Source: a virus
Length of the DNA: 21,426 nt
Virus record (IMG/VR): IMGVR_UViG_3300017605_000068
Span: 1-21,426 of that record
Reading direction: 5' to 3' (one strand)
Position numbers and translations under genes: made by a program. Of the stretch, positions 1 to 15,761 are shown piece by piece. The notes beneath the pieces are model-generated. The model saw only the letters and a program-made list of their open reading frames with translations, was not told the DNA's origin and ran no database searches. The first letter of the stretch is position 1. Each line of letters opens with the position of its first letter.

Positions 1-512
1 GCCGTTAACGTGTTCTGACAAACGACTCGGACGGTCGTGAGTTTCGCAATGGCTCTCATGCTGCTATCGTGGGAACTGGCGAATAGCAGATAGGTTTGGT
101 GAAGGTCGTCTGTGCCGGCAATCCTGAAGTCATGAGGAATGCGAGCAAGACACCATACGCGTTCGCCCTTACCGAGTGCACCTGCTGATTCGTAGTGCGC
201 GCCGTTCTCTGCCTCAAGCAAGGTGTCAACGAAGTCAAAACAAGCTGCGTTTTGAATCGGTGTGTATTGATCGCCTACTGCGCCCAAGAATGTTTCGTTG
301 TCGTTTCTGAATATTCCCCAAGCTGGAACGAGTCGATCGCCGTAGCTGAGCTGCCGTTTGCTGACTTCCCAATTGAGGCCTGCAAGCTGGATTGCCTGTT
401 GCCAGTTCTGCGCTTCGCTGACGAGCTGTCCAAGTTTGTGCCATGGGGCCTTGCCTGCTGCGAACATTTCATATTTACCGCTGACTGCGTTGAATGATAG
501 ATTGTGAGCCAT
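1..512 (-). CDS. DUF932 / TIGR03299-type phage-plasmid protein (3' end outside window)
   Basis: This minus-strand gene starts at the ATG at 512-510 behind a GAGGAG Shine-Dalgarno and is open for 170 codons to the window edge, so its C-terminus is missing. The N-terminus contains GKAPWHKLGQ (residues 20-29). The visible end reads VRVVCQNTLT (161-170). Both motifs are hallmarks of the DUF932 / TIGR03299 family found in phages and plasmids. The molecular function of that family is not established, and it is usually located among early or DNA-metabolism genes. It lies downstream of two tiny minus-strand genes and probably shares their promoter. It is transcribed away from the structural genes, which suggests the left edge of this window borders the early region. 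Confidence 0.85.
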   Translation of the reverse strand, partial: MAHNLSFNAVSGKYEMFAAGKAPWHKLGQLVSEAQNWQQAIQLAGLNWEVSKRQLSYGDRLVPAWGIFRNDNETFLGAVGDQYTPIQNAACFDFVDTLLEAENGAHYESAGALGKGERVWCLARIPHDFRIAGTDDLHQTYLLFASSHDSSMRAIAKLTTVRVVCQNTLT

Positions 513-550
513 TGAATTAATCTCCTCGATTAGGTTGAATGTTTGATGTG

Positions 551-573
551 CCGGGCTACTCGCAATAGCCCGG
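551..573 (-). terminator. Perfect hairpin between minus-strand genes (terminator or attenuator candidate)
   Basis: CCGGGCTA at 551-558 and TAGCCCGG at 566-573 form an 8-bp perfect GC-rich stem with a 7-nt loop. It begins directly after the stop codon (574-576) of the 41-residue minus-strand gene and lies about 40 nt before the DUF932 start. On the minus strand no U-tract follows, so it is not a classic intrinsic terminator. It could be a pause/attenuator, a processing site or an mRNA 3'-end stabiliser. On the plus strand a T/C-rich stretch follows, but no plus-strand gene feeds it. Confidence 0.45.
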
Positions 574-699
574 TTACTTCTTTCCAATAAACCACTGCGT
601 GCAATTCTCTTCTGCGTATCTGACTGCATCCTGCTTCCGTCTGAATTCCAGATAAAACCATTTCTTTGTTCTGCTGCTGAATCCTTGAAGGGTGAACAT
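574..699 (-). CDS. Hypothetical 41-residue basic protein
   Basis: The small minus-strand gene begins at ATG 699-697. That codon overlaps the TAA of the upstream gene (701-699) by one base, as expected for translational coupling. The product, starting MFTLQGFSSRTKKWFYLEF, is basic and rich in aromatic residues, with no recognised domain. It resembles the many tiny phage accessory proteins but I cannot assign a role. The tight coupling, the natural composition and the hairpin placed directly after its stop codon support it being real. Confidence 0.6.
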   Translation of the reverse strand: MFTLQGFSSRTKKWFYLEFRRKQDAVRYAEENCTQWFIGKK

Positions 700-839
700 T
701 AGTTGGCCTCCGATACCCAATAGAGATTTCCGTCTGTTGCTTCTCGCGCTACAGCATTAGCTTGCTCTGCCTCTTCGATGGTCATTTCCAATCTGGCGAA
801 AACTTCTGAACCGTCTGTCAACTCGAATTCGTATTCCAT
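699..839 (-). CDS. Hypothetical 46-residue acidic protein
   Basis: The minus-strand gene starts at ATG 839-837, preceded by AGAAAGGA at a suitable distance. The product begins MEYEFELTDGSEVFARLEM and is strongly acidic, with a predicted beta-strand start followed by a helix (TIEEAEQANAVARE). No family is recognised. It is the first gene of the minus-strand operon and is coupled (TAATG) to the basic 41-residue gene. An acidic and basic pair encoded in adjoining frames could interact, but that is only an inference. Confidence 0.65.
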   Translation of the reverse strand: MEYEFELTDGSEVFARLEMTIEEAEQANAVAREATDGNLYWVSEAN

Positions 840-869
840 TTCTGTGTGTCCTTTCTAATTAATTTAACT

Positions 870-879
870 GTGTATACAC
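870..879. promoter_or_regulatory. 10-bp palindrome, operator candidate
   Basis: GTGTATACAC is a perfect palindrome located between the predicted minus-strand -10 element and the first minus-strand start codon. That position, in the early 5' leader, suits a repressor operator. The half-site is short and no repressor gene is visible in the window, so the role is inferred. Confidence 0.35.
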
Positions 880-908
880 TACGGCACTGCGAATCATAAC
901 ACAAGCAA

Positions 909-937
909 ATAATACTTATCTAATCAATATGAATCAA
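909..937 (-). promoter_or_regulatory. Sigma70-like promoter for the minus-strand operon
   Basis: Read on the minus strand, TTGATT (937-932) and TATTAT (914-909) are separated by exactly 17 nt. They match the -35 consensus at 4/6 and the -10 consensus at 5/6. The start point would be near 902, giving a leader of about 60 nt before ATG 839. The surrounding AT-rich stretch is unlike the coding DNA. Confidence 0.5.
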
Positions 938-956
938 TAATGAACGTTTATGAACG
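929..956 (+). repeat. Helically phased ATGAA repeats in the divergent control region
   Basis: ATGAATC at 929-935, ATGAACG at 940-946 and ATGAACG at 950-956 recur at 11- and 10-bp spacing, so they face the same side of the helix. They overlap and flank the predicted minus-strand -35 box and precede the plus-strand HNH gene. This is typical of a cooperative regulator-binding site, but no protein partner can be named. Confidence 0.4.
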
Positions 957-976
957 ACTAGGAATAGTGGTTTCAC

Positions 977-1420
977 GTGGAACTGAGCACAAGATATTGG
1001 GGTTTAAGAAAAAAAAGACTTGACAAGAAAAGTGCAAAAGAGCACGTTTTAGCACAAATGACTCGCATTAATTGGGCGAATGCGAAGATTTACAAGCGAT
1101 TCAGATACAAGAAGCGCAATCCTGCCCTTGCAGAAGCTTGGCGCCAATGGCGTGCTGAGCGTCGAGAGCAATACAAAGAATATCTACAAGGTTCGTGGTG
1201 GCAACATCGGCGAGCTGAGAAGCTAAAGCGGGCAAAGCATCGCTGTGAGAAGTGCGGAGCTCAAGACAATCTTCGGGTGCATCATAAGAACTACGATCGA
1301 CTGTATAGGGAAAAGGATCGAGACCTACAGGTTGTTTGCCGGCCTTGTCACGAAGTCATTCACGGAATCTTGCATGAGCAGAAGTATTATGCAAAAACGA
1401 CGTTCAGAGTCGTGAAATGA
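977..1420 (+). CDS. HNH endonuclease
   Basis: The 147-residue product has a basic N-terminal half and a C-terminal HNH nuclease domain. The visible metal ligands are C90-x2-C93 and C121-x2-C124-H125, with H129. The catalytic region is VHHKNY (101-106), followed by E112 and DLQVVC (116-121). The stretch SWWQHRRAEKLKRAKHRC leading into the domain is typical of free-standing phage HNH proteins. The GTG start at 977 is the first possible in this frame; the nearest SD-like AGGAA is rather far upstream, and ATG 1061 is an alternative. HNH proteins encoded near terminase genes commonly assist DNA packaging, and this one sits upstream of the packaging genes. A mobile homing role is the alternative. 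Confidence 0.88.
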   Translation: MELSTRYWGLRKKRLDKKSAKEHVLAQMTRINWANAKIYKRFRYKKRNPALAEAWRQWRAERREQYKEYLQGSWWQHRRAEKLKRAKHRCEKCGAQDNLRVHHKNYDRLYREKDRDLQVVCRPCHEVIHGILHEQKYYAKTTFRVVK

Positions 1421-1466
1421 GTACCCAAGTGAAAGCCGCACTGCTCTAGGTGTATGTTGAAAGAAC

Positions 1467-1495
1467 TTGACAAAAATCGATTGCTAAAGTACAAA
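1467..1495 (+). promoter_or_regulatory. Sigma70-like promoter for the packaging/structural operon
   Basis: A perfect -35 box TTGACA (1467-1472) is followed after 17 nt by TACAAA (1490-1495), which matches the -10 consensus at 4/6. It lies in the gap after the HNH gene and points toward the TerS candidate and the gene string leading to terminase. A small AGCCC/GGGCT hairpin at 1538-1552 lies in the resulting leader. Confidence 0.5.
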
Positions 1496-1599
1496 GTTCG
1501 CGCGCATCCCACGTACAAAAGTCTTCCGATAGCCTTAAGCCCTTCCTGGGCTCCGCACTTGAATTGCGCCTCAAAACTTCAGGAGGTGCTGACAATCAA

Positions 1600-2082
1600 G
1601 TGAAGGACATTCACACGTTTTCCTATCATCTTAAAGACTTGGCAAAACGGCCTGCGCATGTGATCCGTGAAGTTGAACAGGCGTTAGCACCGACCAATCG
1701 AGATGTTGCACGCCGAGTCAAAGGTCAAATCTACTCTCGTTACCTGGCCGCCAAGGTGATGAACGAGCTCATATCAGGTGATCGAGTCGAGATTGGTAAG
1801 CTGTCGATCTACCTGGATCGGACCGAAGGCAAGGTAGCTGACAAGATGCAGGTCGAGGTGAGAAGTGTTGAGTATCACGTCAGTTTACCCCAGATCGATC
1901 AACCCTCTCTTGACTCCTACATCGATGGACACATTGCAGACACAAGGTCCTTGGGAGATGGCTCACAGAGCGAGTCTTCAGAATGCAAACTAGATCAGCA
2001 ATCTAGTGTAGAACGAAGCGAAGTCGAATCGAACGAAGTGGGTGGGGTGGGGGAACAATCTGGGGAAAAGGCCACCGGGTGA
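1600..2082 (+). CDS. Possible terminase small subunit (phage protein of unknown function)
   Basis: I choose GTG 1600 because an AGGAGG Shine-Dalgarno lies at 1581-1586; an upstream TTG at 1564 would lie before it. The product is 160 residues. Its middle section (KVMNELISGDRVEIGKLSI then YLDRTEGKVADKMQVEV) resembles the end of many small terminase subunits, where a helix plus 'DRTEGK' motif precedes a strand-forming tail. The last 45 residues are low-complexity, rich in Ser, Glu and Gly. No clear N-terminal helix-turn-helix is visible, so the assignment is tentative. Position, upstream of TerL in the same direction, agrees with it. The AT-poor, G-rich 3' end contrasts with the flanks. Confidence 0.45.
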   Translation: MKDIHTFSYHLKDLAKRPAHVIREVEQALAPTNRDVARRVKGQIYSRYLAAKVMNELISGDRVEIGKLSIYLDRTEGKVADKMQVEVRSVEYHVSLPQIDQPSLDSYIDGHIADTRSLGDGSQSESSECKLDQQSSVERSEVESNEVGGVGEQSGEKATG

Positions 2083-2142
2083 GGAACACAGTAGGTAAGT
2101 GAGTCTCATCTATCAACTCTGGTTTAGGTTCTTTCGAGTCTC

Positions 2143-2226
2143 ATGTTTGAGTGGTCGCATGTAGTGATTGGCGGGTTGGTGTTGATTGTTTGTTTGATGG
2201 TAGGGATGTATGTAGGCACTCGGTGA
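2143..2226 (+). CDS. 27-residue single-helix membrane protein
   Basis: A short reading frame from ATG 2143 encodes MFEW followed by a hydrophobic helix (about residues 7-23) with a central Cys (C17) and a GTR tail. The Glu-Trp just before the membrane segment and the mid-helix Cys recur in two other tiny membrane proteins at 2444 and 3074, which is the main reason to believe it is translated. The Shine-Dalgarno is weak (GAG four bases upstream). Function is unknown; a holin- or spanin-like or host-membrane role is possible but unsupported. Confidence 0.45.
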   Translation: MFEWSHVVIGGLVLIVCLMVGMYVGTR

Positions 2227-2267
2227 AACGAAGCAGTACAGACGCTCTGAAGTGAGTTCAATCTATT

Positions 2268-2447
2268 ATGATGGAAGCGATTCACACTTCACTAGCTGGT
2301 GTCTCGGTTAAATGTCCGTTCTGCGGTTGGGCAATGACGTACACATCTCATGACGGGAAGAATGTTAAGTGCCTCAACCCTGGTTGCGAGCAGAAGGAAG
2401 TTGTTTACGAAGTGCGGCCTTATGTCGCGTTGACGAGGCAGGTATGA
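2268..2447 (+). CDS. Zinc-ribbon protein, copy A (59 residues)
   Basis: The gene is too short to stand out by length but has a clear four-cysteine metal site: C16-x2-C19, C35-x4-C40, with the core CPFCGWAM and KCLNPGC. It is paralogous to the 62-residue protein at 2886, which has Cys at the same first positions (16 and 19) and the same WAM and CLNxxC signature. The start is one of two adjacent ATGs at 2268/2271. Its stop overlaps the next start (ATGA at 2444-2447), so it is coupled to a membrane protein. Zinc ribbons of this size bind nucleic acid or protein; no specific target is visible. Confidence 0.75.
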   Translation: MMEAIHTSLAGVSVKCPFCGWAMTYTSHDGKNVKCLNPGCEQKEVVYEVRPYVALTRQV

Positions 2448-2593
2448 ATACCGAAGACGATATCAAGGCGTTTCTGGAAGAGAGAGAGAGTGGGGAGCTG
2501 GCTACTTCCGTCAGTATGGAGTGGGTGACTTGGGCCTCGATGATTGTGTTTCTATTGTGTGTTTTGGGGATCGTGTGGATCACGATACATTGA
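2444..2593 (+). CDS. 49-residue membrane protein with acidic N-terminus
   Basis: The start ATG 2444 overlaps the stop of the zinc-ribbon gene by four bases. Residues 1-24 are polar and acidic (MNTEDDIKAFLEERESGELA). A Glu-Trp pair (E26-W27) then leads into one membrane helix (about 30-47) containing C39. The product is probably anchored by the C-terminal helix. It shares the EW-helix-Cys arrangement with the genes at 2143 and 3074. No family is recognised. Confidence 0.65.
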   Translation: MNTEDDIKAFLEERESGELATSVSMEWVTWASMIVFLLCVLGIVWITIH

Positions 2594-2594
2594 T

Positions 2595-2885
2595 ATGAAC
2601 GTCACGCTTGCATGGGATGCGCCTACGAAGTTGGTTGACGATAGCCCGATACCTGCGGGTTCGGTCATTCAGTACAAGCTGTCTCAGGTGAAGCCTGGGG
2701 TAAGCGATGTCGTCATTGCGACAACTCAGGCAACACAGGTGCCTGTCTCGTTTGATCCGTCTGTTGGCTATTTGTTTTATGTTACAGCACAGATTATTCC
2801 GTTTGGGGTCGAGAGCGGGCGTTCGAATACGCTGGATCTGACGCCGGCTGCGATTGCGGCGCCGGTTAATCTCAGGGTTGTTTAG
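2595..2885 (+). CDS. Fibronectin type III-like domain protein (96 residues)
   Basis: The protein is one beta-sandwich-like domain. It starts VTLAWDAP (3-10), has an IQYKLSQ strand (25-31), then YLFYVTA (59-65) and ESGRSN (73-78), and ends in PVNLRVV. This strand pattern (LxWDxP, Y-x-L, YxFxVxA, SxxSN) is characteristic of Fn3 domains. The start ATG 2595 follows one base after the upstream TGA. Single Fn3/Ig-like proteins are often displayed on phage virions where they stick to cell-surface sugars; here the gene lies before terminase rather than with the tail genes. It shares the YxFYVTA strand with the 142-residue protein at 3629. Confidence 0.7.
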   Translation: MNVTLAWDAPTKLVDDSPIPAGSVIQYKLSQVKPGVSDVVIATTQATQVPVSFDPSVGYLFYVTAQIIPFGVESGRSNTLDLTPAAIAAPVNLRVV

Positions 2886-3074
2886 ATGGAGAAGGAAACG
2901 ATTCAGTATCGACCGAAGACAACGGTTTACTGTTGGAAGTGTAATTGGGCGATGGTTATGGAGCAGCAACCGGGTGATCTTCCGCTATTACATCGTTGTC
3001 TGAATGCGCACTGCGCGAACTTCGACAAGAGTTTTGATATTCATTTTCCGATGCTGGTTGAGCAGATTGTTTGA
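2886..3074 (+). CDS. Zinc-ribbon protein, copy B (62 residues)
   Basis: This is the second copy of the small zinc-ribbon family. The cysteines are C16-x2-C19 and C38-x4-C43 within VYCWKCNWAM and HRCLNAHC. The gene begins at ATG 2886 immediately after the TAG of the Fn3-like gene, and its TGA shares one base with the next ATG (TGATG at 3072-3076). Compared with copy A the spacing between Cys pairs is three residues longer and the remainder has diverged widely, so the duplication is old. Function is unknown. Confidence 0.75.
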   Translation: MEKETIQYRPKTTVYCWKCNWAMVMEQQPGDLPLLHRCLNAHCANFDKSFDIHFPMLVEQIV

Positions 3075-3163
3075 TGTACCTGACTCCTCTTGAATGGACG
3101 TTGTTGTTTTTGCTTTTCGGTGTGTGTTTCTTGTTGGGCTATGTGTGGCGGCGGTCGAAGTGA
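3074..3163 (+). CDS. 29-residue single-helix membrane protein
   Basis: The gene is coupled to the zinc-ribbon gene by TGATG. The product begins MYLTPLEW, then has a hydrophobic helix of about 17 residues (8-24) with a central Cys (C18), and ends in the basic tail WRRSK. The tail would place the C-terminus in the cytoplasm by the positive-inside rule. The EW before the helix and the central Cys match the products at 2143 and 2444. It is the second zinc-ribbon plus membrane-protein pair in the window. Confidence 0.6.
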   Translation: MYLTPLEWTLLFLLFGVCFLLGYVWRRSK

Positions 3164-3169
3164 GGGTGG

Positions 3170-3628
3170 ATGGCGACGCAGATATTCAACATCAAGACAG
3201 TTGAGAAGATTGTTGTTAAGGATCCTGGGGAGGCAAAGGGCAAGCACCGGCTGGAGTTCGTATTCAATATTGGAGATGTCAGACTAACTATAGGAGATAA
3301 CGCAATGGTGAACTTCACCAAGGTAGGACAGTTTGTAGAGTTTAGTATCACGATTCTCGATGGGAAGGGCCGTCCGGCACAGATTGATGGAGATATTTCC
3401 GTAACGAATTCGAATGAGATTGCTGGTGGGGTGTTCTTCGATCAGGTGACGCGAACCGGGAAACTGACTTGCCTGGATGAAGGGATCGGGCAGGTTGTGT
3501 TTCAGTGCGATGCGGATTTGGGCGGGGGCGTGAAGCCGTTGGCCGGGACACTGGACTTCACAGGTCCTAACTTGACTGAGGCGAGTGTGTTTACGGTTAC
3601 GGTTGGAGAGATTCAAGAGCCTGCTTAA
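3170..3628 (+). CDS. Ig-like beta-sandwich protein (152 residues)
   Basis: The start ATG 3170 has a GAGGG Shine-Dalgarno. The protein is rich in beta-strand patterns. After an N-terminal section (IFNIKTVEKIVVKD), a domain from about residue 48 reads GQFVEFSITILDGKGRPAQI, then ISVTNSNEI and GIGQVVFQCDADL, ending ASVFTVTVGE. This alternation and the 'change in constant x value' style of strands resemble bacterial Ig-like (Big-type) domains. It lies directly after the second zinc-ribbon/membrane pair and is followed by another beta-sandwich protein. A surface-decoration or adhesin role is inferred; no signal peptide is visible. Confidence 0.6.
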   Translation: MATQIFNIKTVEKIVVKDPGEAKGKHRLEFVFNIGDVRLTIGDNAMVNFTKVGQFVEFSITILDGKGRPAQIDGDISVTNSNEIAGGVFFDQVTRTGKLTCLDEGIGQVVFQCDADLGGGVKPLAGTLDFTGPNLTEASVFTVTVGEIQEPA

Positions 3629-4057
3629 GTGATTCTCCCTTCGGTGCTGCTTATGGTGAGTCTGTTACAGGGGGGTGCGGTTGATGACGCATCCTCTTGT
3701 GTGGGAAATTCCGGGTTGGGCGATTCGACGGTGCAGGCCGGGAGTGAAGTCAAGCTGTGCTGGAGCACTCAGGATGTCGAAGATGTTGGGAATCCGCAAA
3801 ACGGCGGGGTGTTCAAGTACTTCAGGCTGCGCAGGAGTCAGACTCCAGAGGGCAGTTGGGATGTTATTGTCTCAAAGCTCATGCGCGATCAGTGTTTCGA
3901 GCAGGATGATGTCATTTACGGAAGTTATAAGTATGTTGCCGATCGGACATATCACTTTTACGTCACGGCGATCTATGAATTGACGGATGAGGGCGGAGTT
4001 AAGCGGTTGTCTGAGACTCCTGGGAGTCAGCACGCACGAGTAACGGTTAAGCAGTGA
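3629..4057 (+). CDS. Fn3-like protein with possible signal peptide (142 residues)
   Basis: The GTG start at 3629 follows the upstream TAA without a gap; ATG 3653 is an alternative. The N-terminus ILPSVLLMVSLLQGGA is hydrophobic and could be a weak signal peptide, but it lacks the basic n-region. The body has a beta-sandwich pattern (EVKLCWSTQ, FKYFRLRRSQ, DVIVSKL, then YHFYVTAIYEL and HARVTVKQ) compatible with an Fn3-like fold. The YxFYVTA strand is shared with the protein at 2595. Three cysteines (SSC, KLC, DQC) are present. I treat it as the Fn3-like member of the second copy of the small-gene cassette. Confidence 0.6.
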   Translation: MILPSVLLMVSLLQGGAVDDASSCVGNSGLGDSTVQAGSEVKLCWSTQDVEDVGNPQNGGVFKYFRLRRSQTPEGSWDVIVSKLMRDQCFEQDDVIYGSYKYVADRTYHFYVTAIYELTDEGGVKRLSETPGSQHARVTVKQ

Positions 4058-4080
4058 CCTTGAATTTCTCGCCGGGACGC

Positions 4081-4086
4081 GAGGAG
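4081..4086 (+). promoter_or_regulatory. Shine-Dalgarno deciding the start at 4095
   Basis: GAGGAG lies eight bases before ATG 4095. It selects the 58-residue frame over an overlapping frame that would start at GTG 4054. Confidence 0.6.
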
Positions 4087-4094
4087 TACGAGAG

Positions 4095-4271
4095 ATGGGA
4101 CGCAAAGACCGGGAAGATGGGGCGTTACCGAGTTGCGATTGGGAGTTTTGCAGTCTGCCGGCGAATTGGGACTACTGGAAGCATTACAAGACAGGGAATA
4201 AGCCCGATGCAAAGCCGGTTATCAAGGTTTACGATGGGATCAAGCCTGAAGAACTAAGAAAGAATCACTGA
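4095..4271 (+). CDS. Hypothetical 58-residue protein upstream of TerL
   Basis: ATG 4095 has a well-placed GAGGAG. The product is hydrophilic and rich in Trp, Tyr, Asp and Lys (CDWEFCSLPANWDYWKHYK, then VIKVYDGIKPEELRKNH). Its stop is directly followed by the TerL start at 4272. A competing frame (GTG 4054 to 4257) overlaps it, but its second half has a random-looking Ser/Arg/Gly composition, so I prefer this one. No family is recognised. The location between the cassette genes and terminase suggests a packaging accessory, without further support. Confidence 0.65.
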   Translation: MGRKDREDGALPSCDWEFCSLPANWDYWKHYKTGNKPDAKPVIKVYDGIKPEELRKNH

Positions 4272-6821
4272 ATGTCTGTTGCCCCACCTGAAAAGCGAAT
4301 TATCCGGTACGAAGCGACGCCCACGTTAGGGCGCTTCCATCGTAGCAATGCTTTTTACAGGAACATCATGGGGCCGGTTGGTAGCGGGAAGTCCAGCGGG
4401 TGCTGCAACGAGATTATGATGCGAGCACACGCGCAAAAGCCTGGTCCGAGAGGCAAGCGAAGGTCGAGATGGGCAGTAATTCGAAACTGCTACGACGCGC
4501 AGACAGAGATATTGACGGAAACAAGGGGTTGGCAACTGTTCAAGGATTTGGATCCCGAGGATAAGGTGGCAATGCTGGAAAACGGAGCGATGGTTTTCGC
4601 AAAGCCCACCTACTACTATCGGGCTCCTCATGATGGCGAGATGGTTGGTATCCGCTCTCAGAACGTCGACCTCTTTGTTACCCCCAATCATAAGCTCTGG
4701 GTCAGTGGCAGAAGGACTCGCAAAAAAGTTTGGTGTCGACATGAGTTTAAGAAGGCTGAAGAAATCTACGGGAGTGGTGAAGTCTGGCGCATGTCTTCGG
4801 AGTCGAAAGGTTGGCAGGGTGGGTCGACGCAGTTTAGCGAAGACTTCTTGGAGTTCTTGGGTTTCTGGTTCGCTGAAGGCTATGCTGGAGTCTATCAAAG
4901 AGCGGTTAGCGGCGGTCAGCATTACCGCTTGGTCGTAAGTCAAAAGAAGTATTGCCCGTATGTCCAAGAACTGCTGAAGCGTTGCGGTTTGCCTTATGGT
5001 CGACATGATAAGGGTGGAGGAAATTTCAACTATACCCTGTCGACTGCTGAGCCTGAGACTAAGGAACTGATTCATAAGCTGGCCGACTGTGGCAAGTCGA
5101 CAACAAAGAAGGTCCCAACGTGGATTAAGAATGCTCCGATCACGCATTTGAGGGCGTTTCTCCGTGGGCATCAGATGGGAGATGGGCGCTTTAAGACAGG
5201 TCCACACAGTTGCGATCAGCATGTTACGGCGTCGGTCGACCTGGCGAATGATCTTCAAGAGATGCTTGCAAAGACTGGCAAGGCGTCGACCGTCACTTAC
5301 AGCGGTGGCAGGTATGAAGTTACCGTGTCGACCAAGGAAAGATCGAATCCAGTCATTCAGAAACGACATTGGCGCAAAGAGAAATACACCGGATACGTTT
5401 ACTGCGTTGAGGTCCCAACACATATTGTCTATGTGAGGCGGAACGGGAAAGCTGTTTGGTGTTCTCAAACTTACGGGGAACTTAAGGATACGACTATCAG
5501 AACGTGGCTCGATTGGTTCCCAGAGGATGTGTATGGAAAATTCCACTGGACAGACTACGAGCACTATCTGGAGTTTAATGATATCGAGCTTGAAGTATGG
5601 TTTAGGGCCCTTGATCGGCCTGACCATGTTGCGAAAGTTCTCTCGATGGAAGTCACAGGAGCGTGGATCAACGAAGCGCGCGAAGTCCCGTACTCGATCG
5701 TCAAAGCGGTAGGTGATAGGGTTGGGCGATACCCGTCGAGGCGCGAGGAAGGGTGTTCGTGGCGTGGGGTGATTCAGGATACAAACCCTCCGGATACAGA
5801 CCATTGGTGGGCTGTGCTGGCGAATAAGGACAGAAGTACGGATTTTGGGCGCGATTTGCTGTCCTCAGTCGAGCAGTCGGAAGCGTTGATGAGGGAGCAA
5901 GGACAGACGGCGCCGATGTTTGAATTCTTCTCGCAACCTGGAGGCTTAATTGAAACAGGACTTGATGGAGAAGGTCGCCCTATCTTTGTACCTAACCCGC
6001 GAGCTGAGAATCTTAATAACCTCGAACCAGGCTATTACATTAGCCGAATGGCAGGCGCTACTGCCTCACATATCCGCGTCTATTACTGCGGAAATTACGG
6101 CTTCTCCTTCGACGGCAAACCAATCCTTCCGGAATATCGAGATCAAACCCACTGCGCCAAAGAACAGCTCAAACCCGTTCGTGGCATACCTATACAGTGG
6201 GGCGCAGACTTCGGGCTTACCCCCGCGATTGTTTTCGGACAGCGTTTCCCCAATGGACGAATAACCTGGGTTGACGAGCTGGTTGCTACGGATATGGGCT
6301 CGGAGAACTTCGCCAAGCTGTTTGTGCAGTATGTCAATGCAACGTTTGCGGGACATCGTTTTGCCGATGGGACAGGGGATCCAGCGGGCGAGCAGAGAGC
6401 GCAGACCGATGAGGCAACGCCATTTCAGATATTCAATCAAGTGCTGGAGCAATCAAGGATGCCGATTCGGCTGTATCCCGCGAGAACGAATGACTTCACT
6501 ATCAGGCGGGAAGCGATTGCGCACCCTTTAGGGAGATTGATTGACGGGGCGCCTGGGCTGCTGGTGAGTCCCAAGTGCGCGGTGACACGCAAGGGATTGC
6601 AAGGTGGGTACTGCTACAAGCGCATGAAGGTTTCTGGGGATGAGAAGTATCACGACAAGCCCGACAAGAACAAATTCTCGCATCCGGTCGAGGCTGGCGG
6701 GTACATGAATCTGGGGATGGGTGAAGGTGTCAGTCTGATTATCCCTGACATCAACGAAGAGGAAGAGGAAGGCACGCGGAAGCCTTGGGGTACGGGGCGA
6801 AGCGCGGTTTCAGGATACTAA
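4272..6821 (+). CDS. terL: Terminase large subunit (packaging ATPase/nuclease) containing an intein
   Basis: The 849-residue precursor splices to about 522 residues, a normal TerL size. The ATPase has Walker A GPVGSGKS (34-41). The adenine-motif region RN/TYGELKDTTIRTWLDWFP is interrupted by the intein between N72 and T400. Walker B is AWINEAREV (464-472) and the coupling motif is DTNPPD (503-508). The C-terminal RNase H-like nuclease is visible as GADFGLTPA (catalytic D646), GDPAG (D703) and SHPVEAGGY (E807 in the place of the usual third acid). It would cut concatemeric DNA and pump it through the portal at 6821. The Shine-Dalgarno is poor, so the start abutting the upstream TGA implies translational coupling. 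The stop overlaps the portal start (TAATG). Confidence 0.95.
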   Translation: MSVAPPEKRIIRYEATPTLGRFHRSNAFYRNIMGPVGSGKSSGCCNEIMMRAHAQKPGPRGKRRSRWAVIRNCYDAQTEILTETRGWQLFKDLDPEDKVAMLENGAMVFAKPTYYYRAPHDGEMVGIRSQNVDLFVTPNHKLWVSGRRTRKKVWCRHEFKKAEEIYGSGEVWRMSSESKGWQGGSTQFSEDFLEFLGFWFAEGYAGVYQRAVSGGQHYRLVVSQKKYCPYVQELLKRCGLPYGRHDKGGGNFNYTLSTAEPETKELIHKLADCGKSTTKKVPTWIKNAPITHLRAFLRGHQMGDGRFKTGPHSCDQHVTASVDLANDLQEMLAKTGKASTVTYSGGRYEVTVSTKERSNPVIQKRHWRKEKYTGYVYCVEVPTHIVYVRRNGKAVWCSQTYGELKDTTIRTWLDWFPEDVYGKFHWTDYEHYLEFNDIELEVWFRALDRPDHVAKVLSMEVTGAWINEAREVPYSIVKAVGDRVGRYPSRREEGCSWRGVIQDTNPPDTDHWWAVLANKDRSTDFGRDLLSSVEQSEALMREQGQTAPMFEFFSQPGGLIETGLDGEGRPIFVPNPRAENLNNLEPGYYISRMAGATASHIRVYYCGNYGFSFDGKPILPEYRDQTHCAKEQLKPVRGIPIQWGADFGLTPAIVFGQRFPNGRITWVDELVATDMGSENFAKLFVQYVNATFAGHRFADGTGDPAGEQRAQTDEATPFQIFNQVLEQSRMPIRLYPARTNDFTIRREAIAHPLGRLIDGAPGLLVSPKCAVTRKGLQGGYCYKRMKVSGDEKYHDKPDKNKFSHPVEAGGYMNLGMGEGVSLIIPDINEEEEEGTRKPWGTGRSAVSGY
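4488..5468 (+). other. Intein with LAGLIDADG homing endonuclease, inside terL
   Basis: Residues 73-399 (327 aa) interrupt TerL in frame. Splicing block A is CYDAQTEILTETRGW with nucleophile C73. Block B is LFVTPNH with T137 and H140. Block F is YVYCVEVPTHIVYVRRNG with H384. The C-terminal junction is WCSQ/T. The terminal residue is Gln399 instead of the common Asn, and the penultimate residue is Ser instead of His; the +1 extein nucleophile is T400. The two endonuclease helices are LGFWFAEG (196-203, acid E202) and FLRGHQMGDG (296-305, acid D304), so the homing nuclease looks intact. Removing it joins RN to TYGELKD, a normal TerL sequence. The DNA is unusually rich in GTCGAC. Confidence 0.93.
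4665..5332 (+). repeat. Cluster of nine GTCGAC hexamers
   Basis: GTCGAC occurs at 4665, 4735, 4823, 4999, 5039, 5096, 5235, 5285 and 5327, all inside the intein. They fall in all three codon phases (giving VD, GRH/CRH and ST), so protein sequence does not explain them. Reading every TCGA in the rest of the window I found no other GTCGAC, although GTCGAG, GTCGAT and GTCGAA are common. Confidence 0.75.
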
Positions 6822-8929
6822 TGGCAAGCACCTTACAACGGCTGGTCAACATTCTTCAAAGCACGTCGCTGATCGACGAGAAGTCGATTCAGGAAGATAA
6901 GGGCAAGATTGCGGCTCGCTGCTATGAAGAGTTCGAGATGGATTTGCGTTCTCGCGGAGAGTGGGAGCAGCAAAGCAAAGGTGCGCTGGAAATTGCCAAG
7001 CAGGTCTGGAGCAAGAAGACGGAGCCGTGGGATGGGGCGGCAAACGTCAAGTACCCGTTGATTGCAGGTGCGGCGGTGCAGTTCGGGGCAAGGGCGTATC
7101 CAGCGATTCTCTCAGGGCGAGATATTGTGCGCACGAAGATTGTTGGGCAAGATCCTGACGGCTCGAAGAGTGCGCGGGCGGCTCGTGTGCAGAAGCATAT
7201 GAATTATCAGTTGACGGAGCAGATTAAGGATTGGGATGAGGGCATGGACAAGCTGTTACATGGCTTACCAGTCCTCGGCACCATGTTCAAGAAAACTTAC
7301 TGGAGTAAGCTCCTTGAGCGTCCCGTAAGCGAATTGGTCCTCCCGCACGACTTGGTTGTTAATAATGATACGACGAAAGACATACTTGAAGCGCGACGGA
7401 TTACGCACATATTTGCGTTATTCAAGAATGAGATTATCGAACGGATGCGCTCGGGAATCTGGACAAAGGACGAAACGATTCTTGAGCGGCTGAATCCGAC
7501 TGGCACAGACGAGCAAGGGCCGTACACGGTTCTCGAACAGCATCGGTGGCTGGACCTGGATGATGATGGGTACGAAGAGCCTTACGCAGTCACGATGTTG
7601 CCGGGTATCGGCATGACTGACGGGGGTGTACATCAGTTTCAGGTGGGAGATATTGTGCGGATTGTCCCGCGATACTTCCCTGAAGACGTGGAATTGAACG
7701 AGGATGGCAAGATTAAGAAAATTAATCCGCAGTGTGCCTTCTCGAAGTACACGTTTATCCCTGATTTCTGCGGCAAGTTTTACGATGTTGGCTTTGGGCA
7801 GCTGTTGAATCCGCTGAATGAGGCGGTAAACGGGCTGATTAATCAGCTACTCGATGCTGGCACGCTGTCGAACATGCAATCTGGGTTCATTGCCAAGGGA
7901 TTGAAGGTCAAGGGCGGGGAAATGCGATTCTCCCCGGGTGAATTCAAGCAAGTCAACTCGTTGATGAACGATTTAAGGGGCTCGATCCTGCCATTGCCGT
8001 ACAAAGAGCCTTCTCCGACGCTGATGAACCTGCTTACGTTCCTGGTTGATGCGGGAAAGCAGCTGAGCTCGGTGTCTGAAGTGTTGTCGGGTGAGCAAAG
8101 CGGCGTGAATGTCCCGGCAACAACGACTCTCGCGCTGATCGAACAGGGCTTGAAGGTGTTTACAGCCATCAACAAGCGCGTGTATCGCGGCATGGCGTCT
8201 GAGTTCGAGATTATCTATTACCTCAATGCGCGCTATCTGTCTGATGCGGAATATTTCAAGATTCTGGACGAAGAAAACATCATTGCGCGTTCCGATTATG
8301 CGATGGGTGATTGCGATATTTACCCCGTTGCGGATCCGACGAATGCCACCAGTACGCAAAAGCTGATTAAGGCTGAAGCATTGATGAAAACAATGGGGAT
8401 GCCGGGGGCGGCTGATCCGAGAGCGATCTTGCACAAGTATTACGAGGCGCTGGAGATTGACGACTTAGAGAAATTCCACCCAGAGCAAGGCCCTGAACCT
8501 CCTCCCGATCCGAAAGCGGAAGACATCAAGTCGAGCATTCAAGAGCGGCAAGCGAAGTTACCGTATGAAATCGAGAAGCTCAGGACTGAGAGCATTAAGA
8601 ACATCGCGCTAGCCGAAGCCGCCGAGATAGGCCCGCAACTGGAGCAATACAAGCTGGCGTTGCAGTCGGTGTTGCAAGACAGGCAACAACGTGGCGATCA
8701 GGAGCTACAGCAGCAGCAGATGGATCAGCAGGCTCAGATGCAACAAGCGCAGATGATGCAGCAGCAACAAATGCAGCAGCAGGATCAAGGGCATCAAGCC
8801 GGGATGCAGCAGCAGCAGATGATGGCCGATCAGCAGGACGCGGATGCTACCCGCGAGCATGAGATGGGATTGGCGGGGATGGAAGCGGAAGCAGCGGCAC
8901 AGAACAACGATAGCGGTGTCGGTGCGTGA
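6821..8929 (+). CDS. Portal protein
   Basis: The start is ATG 6821, which shares a base with the TerL stop; the frame is open further upstream, but only inside terL. The 702-residue length and position right after TerL are those of a podovirus-type portal. Typical features are EPWDGAANVKYPLI near residue 70 (membrane-free helical wing start), GMDKLLHGLPVLGTMFKKTY, a central PLNEAVNGLINQLLDAG, and YKEPSPTLMNLLTFLVDAGK before the clip/crown. The portal forms a dodecameric ring at one capsid vertex, binding terminase on one side and the scaffold on the other. The last 80 residues are an extremely Gln- and Met-rich, probably coiled-coil or disordered, tail (about 626-673) that would form the internal crown or barrel. 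Confidence 0.92.
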   Translation: MASTLQRLVNILQSTSLIDEKSIQEDKGKIAARCYEEFEMDLRSRGEWEQQSKGALEIAKQVWSKKTEPWDGAANVKYPLIAGAAVQFGARAYPAILSGRDIVRTKIVGQDPDGSKSARAARVQKHMNYQLTEQIKDWDEGMDKLLHGLPVLGTMFKKTYWSKLLERPVSELVLPHDLVVNNDTTKDILEARRITHIFALFKNEIIERMRSGIWTKDETILERLNPTGTDEQGPYTVLEQHRWLDLDDDGYEEPYAVTMLPGIGMTDGGVHQFQVGDIVRIVPRYFPEDVELNEDGKIKKINPQCAFSKYTFIPDFCGKFYDVGFGQLLNPLNEAVNGLINQLLDAGTLSNMQSGFIAKGLKVKGGEMRFSPGEFKQVNSLMNDLRGSILPLPYKEPSPTLMNLLTFLVDAGKQLSSVSEVLSGEQSGVNVPATTTLALIEQGLKVFTAINKRVYRGMASEFEIIYYLNARYLSDAEYFKILDEENIIARSDYAMGDCDIYPVADPTNATSTQKLIKAEALMKTMGMPGAADPRAILHKYYEALEIDDLEKFHPEQGPEPPPDPKAEDIKSSIQERQAKLPYEIEKLRTESIKNIALAEAAEIGPQLEQYKLALQSVLQDRQQRGDQELQQQQMDQQAQMQQAQMMQQQQMQQQDQGHQAGMQQQQMMADQQDADATREHEMGLAGMEAEAAAQNNDSGVGA
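8706..8845 (+). repeat. CAG/CAA-rich low-complexity tract at the portal 3' end
   Basis: Imperfect runs of CAG, CAA and ATG codons encode the Gln/Met-rich portal tail (QQQQM, MQQAQMMQ, MQQQQMM). The units vary, so this is a degenerate repeat rather than a pure microsatellite. It could change length by slippage without altering the frame. Confidence 0.6.
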
Positions 8930-8942
8930 AGAAAGGAAAAGT

Positions 8943-9248
8943 ATGCTAGGTTTCGAGTGGGCATTAACTCAACTACGAAATGGGCATAAAGTCCAGCGTG
9001 GGGGATGGAATGGCAAGGATATGTATATTGCTCTTCAAGAAGGATACCCTAATGGCATACCAATTAACGCTAACACGGCTAAGGCTACGGGGCTTCCTCA
9101 AGGAACAGTATGCAAGTTCCTGCCGTATATCATGATGAAAACTTCCGACAAGGCCCCTTCATTTGTTCCGTGGTTGGCAAGTCAGACGGACATCTTAGCG
9201 TTAGATTGGGATTACTATATCGCTGCGCCATCGACGGCTAGTGCGTAA
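8943..9248 (+). CDS. DUF2829 protein, Tad2-like (possible anti-Thoeris)
   Basis: The start is ATG 8943 behind GAAAGGA; translation upstream would run into the portal end. The 101 residues show the family signature: FEWALTQLRNGHKVQRGGWNG (4-24), PYIMMKTSD (61-69) and VPWLASQTDILALDWDYY (75-92). DUF2829 includes Tad2, a phage protein that binds and sequesters the cyclic ADP-ribose-type signal of Thoeris defence, disabling the effector. Many DUF2829 members have not been tested, so an anti-defence function is inferred from family membership only. It sits among assembly genes between portal and co-chaperonin. The stop overlaps the next ATG (TAATG). Confidence 0.85.
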   Translation: MLGFEWALTQLRNGHKVQRGGWNGKDMYIALQEGYPNGIPINANTAKATGLPQGTVCKFLPYIMMKTSDKAPSFVPWLASQTDILALDWDYYIAAPSTASA

Positions 9249-9460
9249 TGGAATTCAGTCCTGACGAGAAGGATTTGATTGCGACATGGCTCCATCATCC
9301 GACAACGGGAATCGTCTTCAGGGAATTGCGCAAGGATTTTCAATCTGCAAACGAGGCGACCTGCCTGGGTGCTACGGCGGACGAATCGCACTCCAATGCA
9401 GCATTCAGGGAAGGGCAACGGGAAGTGTACAACTCAGTATTGAACATTTTGGAGGAGTAG
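9248..9460 (+). CDS. Hypothetical 70-residue phage protein
   Basis: The gene begins within the stop of the DUF2829 gene (TAATG) and its own TAG abuts the next ATG, so it is embedded in an operon. The product starts MEFSPDEKDLIATWLHHPTT and ends with NAAFREGQREVYNSVLNILEE. Its 'FREGQR..YNSVLNIL' C-terminal helix resembles small unknown proteins common beside phage head genes, where EGxR and N residues are conserved. I cannot name a function. It appears mostly helical and soluble. Confidence 0.75.
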   Translation: MEFSPDEKDLIATWLHHPTTGIVFRELRKDFQSANEATCLGATADESHSNAAFREGQREVYNSVLNILEE

Positions 9461-9829
9461 ATGAATAAGGCAGTGCAAGCGGTTAGCGTAGACGATGCTT
9501 ACAAGATGCTAGAGCCTGCGGGGCATCGCATCATCGTTCGGCCTGACAAGATCGAGGAGAAGGTTGGAAGCCTTTACATTACCGAACAGGCGAAAGACAT
9601 GGAAGTCCGGGCTGCTTCGATGGGTGTGATTGTTGCCAAGGGCAAAAGTGCTTGGAAAGCATTTGACGATGGTGAGCCGTGGGCTTCGGTCGGTGACAGG
9701 GTGATGTTTGCTACCTATGCAGGACGGGATGTCCCAAAAGCCCTTGCCTATCGTGTAGCGCCGACTGCCGATCGGCTTGTTGTGCTGAATGATGAAGATA
9801 TTTTGATGATTGTGCGCGAGGAAAAATAA
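9461..9829 (+). CDS. GroES-like co-chaperonin
   Basis: The 122-residue protein has the Cpn10 barrel. LEPAGHRIIVRPDKIEEK (17-34) is the first strand region. GSLYITEQAKDMEVRA (36-51) corresponds to the mobile loop, with LYI as the hydrophobic tripeptide that docks on GroEL. MGVIVAKG (54-61) is followed by VGDRVMFATYAGRDV (77-91), and LVVLNDEDILMIV (106-118) is the closing strand. Phage GroES-like proteins (such as T4 gp31) replace host GroES so the host chaperonin folds the capsid protein. It lies upstream of the scaffold and coat genes, as that role predicts. A GGAGGAG Shine-Dalgarno precedes ATG 9461. Confidence 0.92.
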   Translation: MNKAVQAVSVDDAYKMLEPAGHRIIVRPDKIEEKVGSLYITEQAKDMEVRAASMGVIVAKGKSAWKAFDDGEPWASVGDRVMFATYAGRDVPKALAYRVAPTADRLVVLNDEDILMIVREEK

Positions 9830-9830
9830 T
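9803..9830 (+). promoter_or_regulatory. Promoter candidate upstream of the structured RNA
   Basis: TTGATG (9803-9808) and AATAAT (9825-9830) are separated by 16 nt, matching the -35 consensus at 4/6 and the -10 consensus at 5/6, inside the end of the GroES-like gene. Transcription would start near 9837, about 30 nt before the structured RNA. The spacing is plausible but such matches also occur by chance. Confidence 0.35.
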
Positions 9831-9864
9831 GAAGGGCAAAGGCAAAAAGAAAAAAGGTTGCTAG
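9829..9864 (+). CDS. 11-residue lysine-rich micropeptide (doubtful)
   Basis: ATG 9829 shares a base with the stop of the GroES-like gene (TAATG), the coupling seen at several other junctions here. The product MKGKGKKKKGC is almost entirely lysine and glycine with a terminal cysteine. It could be a real DNA- or RNA-binding micropeptide, a leader peptide for the adjacent RNA, or chance. It is far too short to judge by composition. Confidence 0.25.
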   Translation: MKGKGKKKKGC

Positions 9865-9867
9865 CAG

Positions 9868-10073
9868 TTTAGGGGTTAAGCGGCTCCACACTTCACACTA
9901 CCGATAACCAAGCTTTCACTTACTCTCGTAGAGTTGCGAAGCTAACCGTTATCCACCTGGGTGTGAGCAGTGGCTTCCCCTAAAAACTTTGGTCTACGGT
10001 AGGCATACCGTTTAAAGGCCACCCAAAGCAGTAGAAAAGGCTCTATTCGAATTCGAGCGGATAGGGCCTTTTC
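9868..10073 (+). ncRNA. Novel structured RNA candidate (about 200 nt)
   Basis: This 200-nt stretch has no convincing gene but folds extensively. TTTAGGGG (9868-9875) pairs with CCCCTAAA (9977-9984). Nested inside are AAG/CTT, CCAC/GTGG (9886-9889 with 9970-9973), TCACAC/GTGTGA (9893-9898 with 9961-9966), GATAAC/GTTATC (9903-9908 with 9948-9953), AGCTTT/GAAGCT (9911-9916 with 9938-9943) and ACTCT/AGAGT (9922-9926 with 9930-9934). A second hairpin has CTTTGG/CCAAAG (9987-9992 with 10023-10028) around ACGGTA-GGCA-TACCGT (9996-10011). A terminator hairpin follows. It matches no RNA family I recognise; it is not a tRNA. It could be a stand-alone phage RNA or a leader controlling the scaffold/coat operon. 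A GTGGC/GCCAC alternative pairing (9970-9974 with 10018-10022) might allow switching. Confidence 0.65.
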
Positions 10074-12344: not shown

Positions 12345-13259
12345 ATGGCAGGGATCATCAACACTGGTTCCTTTGCGAAATCGTTAATGCCTGGTGTCAA
12401 AGCTTGGTTCGGCGCCTCGTATAACGAATACGTCAAGGAATACACGAAGATTTTCAAGCAGGAAACCTCGGACAAAGCCTATGAGGAAATGGTTTCCGTA
12501 ACCTCAATGGGTTTAGCCGGGGTGAAGTCTGAAGGATCTTCCATCGCTTACGATGCGATGAAGCAGTTCTATGTGAACCGCACGCCTCACGTGGTTTACG
12601 GCCTGGGCTTCATCATCACGCGGGAGCATAAGGAAGACAATCAGTATACCGAAGTTGCCAAAGCACGCTCGACCGCTTTGGGCTTCTCCATGCGTCAGAC
12701 AAAGGAGATTGTTGGCGCAAACCTCATTAACCGGGCGTTCACGGCGGGCTATACCTTCGGGGATGGTCAAGTGCTGTGCTCGGCTTCTCATCCGATTGTT
12801 GGCGGAACATTCTCCAACATCCCGAGTGTTGCCGGCGATCTGAGCGGGGCAGTTCTCGAACAGGGCGCTATCGACATTGCGGCTTTTGTCAACAATCGCG
12901 GACTCAAGATCAAGGTGATGCCTCAATCGTTGCTGATTCATCCAAGCAATATGTTCGAGGCAGAGCGGATTCTTAAGTCTGCACTGGAGTATGACACGGC
13001 GAACAATGCAGTTAACGCCTTGAAGTCTCTTGGCTCATTCCCCAAAGGTGTCAACGTCAATCACTACCTGACTGACGCTGACGCTTGGTTCATCCTCACC
13101 GATTGCCCGAACGGGTTAACTCTGTTTCAACGTCGCGCTTTGGAGCTGTCCAGTCCTGAAAACGACTTCGATACTGAGAACGCCAAGTTCAAGGCAACGG
13201 AGCGGTACAGCTTCACAAACGGCGATCCTCGCTCCATCTACGGAAGCGCAGGAGCTTAA
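12345..13259 (+). CDS. Major capsid protein (HK97-fold, Mu gpT-like)
   Basis: An AAAGGAG lies upstream of ATG 12345. The 304 residues resemble Mu gpT-type coat proteins: an N-terminal arm (FAKSLMPGVKAWFGASYNEY), a spine helix region, and GFIITREHKEDNQYTEVAKA. The later part contains MPQSLLIHPSNMFEAERIL, NHYLTDADAWFILTDCPNG and ENDFDTENAKFKATERYSF followed by DPRSIYG, which are well conserved among phage coats. It would form the icosahedral shell, assembled on the scaffold candidate with help from the GroES-like protein. An intrinsic terminator directly follows. The codon use appears typical of a strongly expressed gene. Confidence 0.9.
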   Translation: MAGIINTGSFAKSLMPGVKAWFGASYNEYVKEYTKIFKQETSDKAYEEMVSVTSMGLAGVKSEGSSIAYDAMKQFYVNRTPHVVYGLGFIITREHKEDNQYTEVAKARSTALGFSMRQTKEIVGANLINRAFTAGYTFGDGQVLCSASHPIVGGTFSNIPSVAGDLSGAVLEQGAIDIAAFVNNRGLKIKVMPQSLLIHPSNMFEAERILKSALEYDTANNAVNALKSLGSFPKGVNVNHYLTDADAWFILTDCPNGLTLFQRRALELSSPENDFDTENAKFKATERYSFTNGDPRSIYGSAGA

Positions 13260-14528: not shown

Positions 14529-15761
14529 ATGGCAAGACTCTTTAGTTATGTGGCTGGCACGACTACCAGTCACATTAACTGCACCAACAACTCATCACTG
14601 AAGCCTACAACTGCGTTCACTTTGCAGGCATGGGCTTACCGTACTGGTGTGCTTGAGGCTGGCGGGGCTGGCATCGCGAGTCTTTGGAGTTCTGGTGGCG
14701 GCGCCAAGGGTTACTTGATGTGGGCCGAACCTGCGGCGGCTAACCTCAAGTTCAACATTGAAGGCACGTCGATTGATTCGGGCGTCGTTTCGGCTCTGAA
14801 TACCTGGCAACACATTGTCTGCTGGTGGAATGGCACGACAATGAAGATTTACGTCGATGGAGTCGAGAAGGCATCGACTGCCAAGGGCGCCTTTACCCAT
14901 TCCGCAATCGACTTCCTGATTGGCACGTATGATTCTGTCGATCAGACGCAAAAGACATTCCCTGGAAGAATCTGCGAAGTCGCTCTATGGTCGGTCGCCC
15001 TGACGGCCTCCGAGATTACGCAACTCTCCAAGAAATTCTCTCCGCTGTTTATCAGAAAGAGTTCTCTGGCTGAGTATTGGCAGGTCAGAGGCAATGCTTA
15101 CCCTGAGCAGGGATTGATTCGCGGGATACAGGGGACACGCATTTCGCAACCGTCAGACAATGGCGGTCCAACTAAAGCGGAGCATGTTCCAGTCTATTAC
15201 CCATCGACAAACAGCCTGGGCATGGGTGCGGCGATATTCTACCCGTCCGTGACTGTGACGCCTAGTCCGGCAACGGTCGTTGCGCTCACGCTTGGGCCTA
15301 CCGTTGTTCTCGGCTCAATCGTCTTGAACAATCTCGGTACGGCTGATGTCGTCGTCGATACGATCGGTCCTGATGGCATCCTGTACAGCTCCGTAACAAT
15401 CACTCCAGACCCGGCTGATGTGGTGGTTGACACGACAGGCCCAACGGTTATCGAGACAACGATTACTTTCCCGCCTCCCGAACCAGACGAGATGTTTCAG
15501 ACAACTCGCTGGAAGTGGTGGAAAGGCTATTACAGGCCGGGAGATGCCGGCGGGATATGCGATCGGTGCGGGTTCGAGATATGGCTTTCCATGCTTTACA
15601 AGGAATGGAATGGAGCCAAGGTTTGCGCGAAGTGCTTTGAAGAAAGACATCCGCAAGACAGGTTGCGCGGTGTGCGCGACAACAAGCCGGTAAGGGAACC
15701 AAGGGTTCCTGTATTAGATCATTTCGTACAACCAGGGGATATCACTCCCGAGGATCTATAG
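14529..15761 (+). CDS. LamG-like lectin protein fused to a C-terminal zinc ribbon (410 residues)
   Basis: Residues 1-175 form a LamG/concanavalin A-like domain with recognisable strands AFTLQAWAYRTG, NTWQHIVCWWNG, MKIYVDGVEKAS and GRICEVALWSVALTASEI. A Val/Thr/Pro repeat linker follows (ADVVVDTIGP and ADVVVDTTGP, two diverged copies, about 280-305). The C-terminus has a four-Cys ribbon: C344-x2-C347 and C366-x2-C369, in the setting GGICDRCGF, LYKEWNGAKVCAKCFEERHP and PQDRLRGV. That ribbon normally occurs as a small separate phage protein near tail or structural genes, so this looks like a fusion. LamG would bind host or environmental sugar; the ribbon could stabilise attachment to the virion. 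Confidence 0.8.
   Translation: MARLFSYVAGTTTSHINCTNNSSLKPTTAFTLQAWAYRTGVLEAGGAGIASLWSSGGGAKGYLMWAEPAAANLKFNIEGTSIDSGVVSALNTWQHIVCWWNGTTMKIYVDGVEKASTAKGAFTHSAIDFLIGTYDSVDQTQKTFPGRICEVALWSVALTASEITQLSKKFSPLFIRKSSLAEYWQVRGNAYPEQGLIRGIQGTRISQPSDNGGPTKAEHVPVYYPSTNSLGMGAAIFYPSVTVTPSPATVVALTLGPTVVLGSIVLNNLGTADVVVDTIGPDGILYSSVTITPDPADVVVDTTGPTVIETTITFPPPEPDEMFQTTRWKWWKGYYRPGDAGGICDRCGFEIWLSMLYKEWNGAKVCAKCFEERHPQDRLRGVRDNKPVREPRVPVLDHFVQPGDITPEDL

Follow-up and report, generated by a model that had tools for sequence, protein, structure and literature searches.

Gene content of the block before the terminase gene

The window analysed here is the whole IMG/VR record IMGVR_UViG_3300017605_000068, comprising 21,426 bases from an uncultured phage. 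Its rightward late genes begin near position 2143 and continue through the genes for the terminase, the portal, a GroES-like protein and a putative major capsid protein. Just 5' of the terminase gene, the list of open reading frames contains eight tiny genes packed head-to-tail, referred to below as the cassette (Table 1). From 2268 to 4057 the intergenic spacing is between -4 and +6 bases, and stop and start codons meet in the junctions ATGA (2444, an overlap of TM1 with ZR1), TGATATG (2595), TAGATG (2886), TGATG (3074, between ZR2 and TM2) and TAAGTG (3629). Such junctions predict translational coupling from ZR1 onward. Close gene packing extends into the structural genes and is thus no peculiarity of the cassette. 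The frames with their positions, the cysteine motifs and the overlaps of stop with start codons given in a first-pass annotation of this DNA were all reproduced.

Table 1. Genes of the cassette and its downstream neighbours (positions in the window).
Feature	Position	Strand	Description
TM0	2143-2226	+	27-residue single-span membrane peptide: EW, hydrophobic span, C-terminal R
ZR1	2268-2447	+	59-residue C4 zinc-ribbon-like protein
TM1	2444-2593	+	49-residue protein with acidic N-terminus and single C-terminal membrane span
FN1	2595-2885	+	96-residue beta-rich protein with Fn3-like motifs, no signal peptide
ZR2	2886-3074	+	62-residue C4 zinc-ribbon-like protein, putative ZR1 paralogue
TM2	3074-3163	+	29-residue single-span membrane peptide with RRSK tail
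IG	3170-3628	+	152-residue beta protein, Ig-like by pattern
FN2	3629-4057	+	142-residue protein with Fn3-like motifs, GTG start, hydrophobic N-terminus
Ninth small gene	4054-4271	+	Between FN2 and terminase; GTGA overlap with FN2
Terminase large subunit	4272-6821	+	Intein-interrupted; neighbour, outside the cassette
Portal	from 6824		
GroES-like gene	9461-9829		
Putative major capsid gene	12345-13259		Named by position relative to the gene orders of MW202796 and MW202785

Coding potential was assessed by a codon-usage score, with the large genes of the record as training set and wrong-frame segments of equal length for comparison. Six of the eight frames showed clear coding bias (p <= 0.004): FN1, IG and FN2 (p = 0.0005 each), ZR1 (p = 0.0015), ZR2 (p = 0.0025) and TM1 (p = 0.004). 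The bias of TM0 (p = 0.07) and TM2 (p = 0.09) was marginal, as expected for so few codons, and the marginal case for these two as genes is made by position and hydropathy. In the ninth small gene, a sliding codon score switches from the frame of 4054 to that of 4095 about 70-95 bases in, indicating a -1 frameshift, a pair of overlapping genes or an error in the sequence.

At the left end of the window, a divergent DUF932 gene on the minus strand (3-509, E = 1e-27) runs off the record, and an HNH endonuclease gene lies at 977-1420 (PHROG, E = 1e-8). The orphan protein encoded at 1564-2082, which has a polar acidic tail and no relatives among phages, is by position a candidate for the otherwise missing small terminase subunit. 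The terminase contains an intein (Hint part and LAGLIDADG_3, E = 3e-6) between RN and TYGEL, which apparently ends in Gln, not Asn, before Thr; the terminase of the nearest relative has no intein at that site. Further downstream, a Laminin_G_3 protein (14529-15761) carries near its C-terminus a CxxC..CxxC zinc motif (CDRCGF..CAKC) that is weakly similar to a DksA/TraR finger.

Similarity between the two runs of genes

The first-pass annotation had described the region as two runs repeating the order zinc ribbon, membrane protein and beta-sandwich protein. The cysteines of ZR1 are at residues 16, 19, 35 and 40 (CxxC-15-CxxxxC) and those of ZR2 at 16, 19, 38 and 43 (CxxC-18-CxxxxC). Both proteins thus have the two Cys pairs with ribbon spacing of a C4 zinc ribbon, and metal binding is predicted. 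Besides the four cysteines they have WAM and CLN in common. Identity is 24-26% (26% over 50 residues, E = 2e-4 in a single BLASTP comparison), with a z-score of 5.9 and p = 0.0045 against shuffles in which the cysteines were kept fixed. None of 11,243 similarly long background frames from related loci equalled this score. These values support the paralogy of the zinc ribbons noted at first reading.

FN1 and FN2 show 29-35% identity (29% in the alignment with E = 6e-5) and a z-score of 5.3, and none of 4,190 background frames scored as high. Across these background comparisons, the top scores L077_4852 and L050_1320 turned out on inspection to be out-of-frame artefacts. Their assignment to the Fn3 family, made in the first-pass annotation, found no profile support. 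The motifs VTLAWDAPT and Y.FYVTA are suggestive at most, and the best match, of FN1 to an Fn3 domain of neogenin, is in the expected register and weak (E = 0.4). Neither protein matched the Fn3 profile PF00041 at E <= 10 or was recognised by Pfam, PHROGs or NCBIfam, an A5 profile compared with a few Fn3 sequences gave no significant result, and sequence searches of the PDB returned nothing usable. IG likewise gave no match to Bacterial Ig-like group 2 (PF02368) at E <= 10 or to any Pfam Ig model, so that assignment by profile failed for both Fn3 and Big_2. In pairwise comparison IG is unrelated to FN1 and to FN2. If FN1 does have an Fn3 fold, it starts at what would be strand B and ends in PVNLRVV, resembling strand A of a next domain; the protein may be circularly permuted, or its subunits may exchange strands.

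Homology of the membrane proteins was not confirmed. TM0 and TM1 have hydropathy values of 2.74 (over 18 residues) and 2.68, respectively. Of 583 small hydrophobic frames, 19 gave a similarity score as high as that of TM1 with TM2. This is indistinguishable from chance, and TM1 and TM2 have only their place in the order in common.

Taken together, an old tandem duplication of a unit with a zinc ribbon gene and an FN gene appears likely, in which a membrane gene occupies the central position of each copy and IG joined the second one. The paralogy is read from two protein pairs that are short and share 24-35% identity. The two runs have no nucleotide repeat beyond small matches of 15-20 nt, and any duplication must therefore be old. 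The repeat is also imperfect, as the first run has no counterpart of IG. The duplicated order holds for the zinc ribbon and beta proteins, for which each pair is the best among thousands, but not for homologous membrane proteins or for an Ig-like copy in the first run.

Alternatively, independent zinc ribbons and independent beta proteins could have come into a similar order by chance within a block of small genes. C4 zinc ribbons are generically alike: when only background frames with a C4 motif are considered, 1 of 194 equals the ZR1/ZR2 score in one direction (0 of 194 in the other). The chance-level membrane pair, the symmetry broken by IG and the missing nucleotide repeat also speak for this explanation. 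On the other hand, it has to account for two pairs that each outscore thousands of frames and stand in the same order, for WAM and CLN shared beyond the cysteines, and for the significance against Cys-fixed shuffles, which makes it unlikely in our view. The distinction matters because, if both runs represent a duplication that was kept, the genes were selected as a set, offering a rare handle on the function of tiny phage genes that have no relatives. Otherwise, the cassette is a typical variable block of small genes beside the terminase of tailed phages.

Occurrence in related phages

The nearest relative, contig L005, has 67% identity in the terminase and 53% in the portal, and its sequence starts 478 bases before the terminase gene. 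Next come isolated phages, with 41-47%, and prophage-like contigs, which reach 55% at most. Searches with tblastn, phmmer and two-sequence profiles detected no part of the cassette in any of these relatives, and no copy of it in 33 related records and about 1 Mb of related loci. It was also not found in IMG/VR scans, phage records and 348 genomes; short back-translated word searches reach close relatives only, so that an empty result is weak for short proteins. Desulfovibrio-type genomes, chosen from terL matches of 47-55% and searched for a host-linked copy, gave no match to FN1, IG or ZR, and no description of such a cassette was found in the literature. This agrees with the earlier remark that the arrangement matches no known phage system. 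A conserved gene order in related phages, whose survey had been suggested as a check, is neither demonstrated nor refuted, since what the survey showed was the lack of any cassette, not the presence of single copies. A candidate relative of ZR2 in contig L004 was rejected because the matching stretch lies out of frame within a gene that neighbours a reverse transcriptase ORF. In that region (L004:7648-10013), the reverse transcriptase ORF (8568-10013) adjoins a gene (7648-8262) with a terminal variable region of the WYWSSTQ..AYAWMQ..GYQ type, an arrangement resembling a diversity-generating retroelement.

IG is the sole part of the cassette with relatives, which occur in the IMG/VR contigs L066/L068 and L067 (98% alike to one another). 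The identity is 53% over 130 residues (22-151, E = 4e-38), and we regard the protein as a true homologue. The terminase of these phages belongs to a different family, and their IG homologue lies between terL and portal, directly before a portal-like gene, whereas IG in the cassette lies before terL. No ZR, FN or membrane homologues are found next to it. This location without the other parts indicates that IG moves independently. The terminase-portal interval of L067 also contains a small gene (L067:3257-3493) with an Acb2/Tad1 hairpin domain (PF24729, E = 1e-9), and the IG homologue is located two genes after it. The Acb2/Tad1 family is linked to anti-CBASS activity. Of the three genes before terL in L068, one encodes a beta-like protein, another a membrane protein of 49 residues and another a protein containing CxC and CxxC pairs. 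They have no sequence similarity to the cassette proteins, and may reflect convergence on the same types of parts at the same place, or chance.

The slot before terL is occupied in relatives by variable small genes, which encode terS, a holin and endolysin, or basic small proteins. Phage Pmp11 has a holin and an endolysin gene just before terL, L068 has a holin-like gene near terL (weak PHROG lysis match, E = 0.07), and L078 has a small membrane ORF near it; the small genes of Hodr encode basic proteins without zinc motifs or membrane spans. The frequent location of lysis genes directly before terL, as in Pmp11, L068 and L078, would be compatible with a lysis-associated cluster in which the single-span peptides act as holin or pinholin or as spanin-like accessories, the other proteins being passengers. 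However, no endolysin or spanin was found in 1-4271, TM1 and TM2 matched no holin family in profile scans, and two of the three membrane peptides are only marginal as genes. As the record is a genome fragment, lysis genes may lie beyond it. We consider this role quite improbable.

Proposed roles and comparison with known systems

Building on the observed coding bias, gene order, coupling and pairwise similarity, we tentatively favour the view that the cassette is not one machine but a set of separate, coupled accessory genes opening the late operon for packaging and head formation (probability roughly 0.4). According to this reading, the core of an orphan accessory block would derive from an old tandem duplication of three consecutive genes, for a zinc ribbon, a small membrane protein and a beta-sandwich protein. 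The two copies would have diverged past nucleotide similarity, and the Ig-like gene, also present in an unrelated phage group, would have been inserted into the second copy. The overlapping stop and start codons suggest joint and late synthesis of the products. FN1 and IG lack a hydrophobic segment at the N-terminus; proteins that lack export signals and are made alongside head genes would most likely serve as virion decoration or adhesion domains. The same record encodes other Ig/lectin virion-type proteins, i.e., a Big_7 protein at 16984-20556 and the Laminin_G_3 protein. Virion association of FN1, IG and FN2 is putative.

The membrane peptides would most likely reside N-out/C-in in the inner membrane, as accessories in lysis timing or entry blocking, with the zinc ribbons staying in the cytoplasm as host-takeover proteins. 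The charges of TM0 and TM2 favour the N-out/C-in orientation by the positive-inside rule. If this rule holds, at most a few residues outside the span would face the cytoplasm, offering a cytoplasmic zinc ribbon little to hold on to.

Several points argue against separate accessories. No profile database identifies FN1, FN2 or IG as an Fn3 or Ig protein, the paralogy is read from short proteins of low identity, and FN2 is possibly exported: its N-terminus has a hydropathy of 1.90, lacks a positive n-region and could be a weak signal peptide. An order that occurs twice is also expected if the products act together. The first-pass annotation had proposed one membrane module, in which each zinc ribbon works with the adjacent single-span peptide and a beta-sandwich protein, in two versions, for superinfection block, lysis tuning or anti-defence. 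The repeated order, the close coupling and the paralogous ZR and FN pairs are consistent with this, as are the possible signal peptide of FN2 and the position of the IG relative in L067 near the Acb2/Tad1 hairpin protein. However, FN1 and IG, which make up two of the three beta proteins, lack a visible export route, the paralogy of TM1 and TM2 is not demonstrable, and there are no relatives in which the parts could be seen to co-occur; the relatives of IG occur elsewhere without the ZR/FN/membrane set alongside. Furthermore, PADLOC profiles gave no match for ZR1, ZR2, FN1, FN2, IG, TM1 or TM2. A single coordinated function at the membrane is therefore not supported and rather unlikely, though it is the main alternative to separate accessories. 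The more specific proposal of a new phage module, with a unit of zinc ribbon, single-span peptide and beta-sandwich protein duplicated into two specialised versions that jointly act at the membrane, we consider very doubtful. The cassette supplies eight short, clearly delimited genes that are open to testing in a laboratory strain.

Among known systems, the Lar restriction alleviation proteins (PF14354) are, like ZR1, small C4 zinc-binding phage proteins, and residues 15-42 of ZR1 match them weakly. A Lar identity was rejected: the match reached 17-18 bits against a cut-off of 28.6, in a search that matches 14 of 14 control genomes, and unlike ZR1, ZR2 gave no match to the profile at all. ZR1 also has a match to S27e, which is likewise below threshold. 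The podophages Pmp11, BcepC6B, Ss1 and Hodr, as well as L068 and L078, have close-packed small genes in the same slot, sometimes with a holin or endolysin, but none of them has the ZR/TM/FN set or its duplication. Phage heads are known to carry Ig-like decoration proteins, for example T4 Hoc (PMC10385173) and T5 pb10 (PMC5292684). The cassette proteins differ in being single small domains, with no detectable sequence relationship to these and no capsid-binding domain identified; what IG and the FN proteins would share with Hoc and pb10 is being Ig-like or beta-sandwich phage proteins encoded among head and packaging genes.
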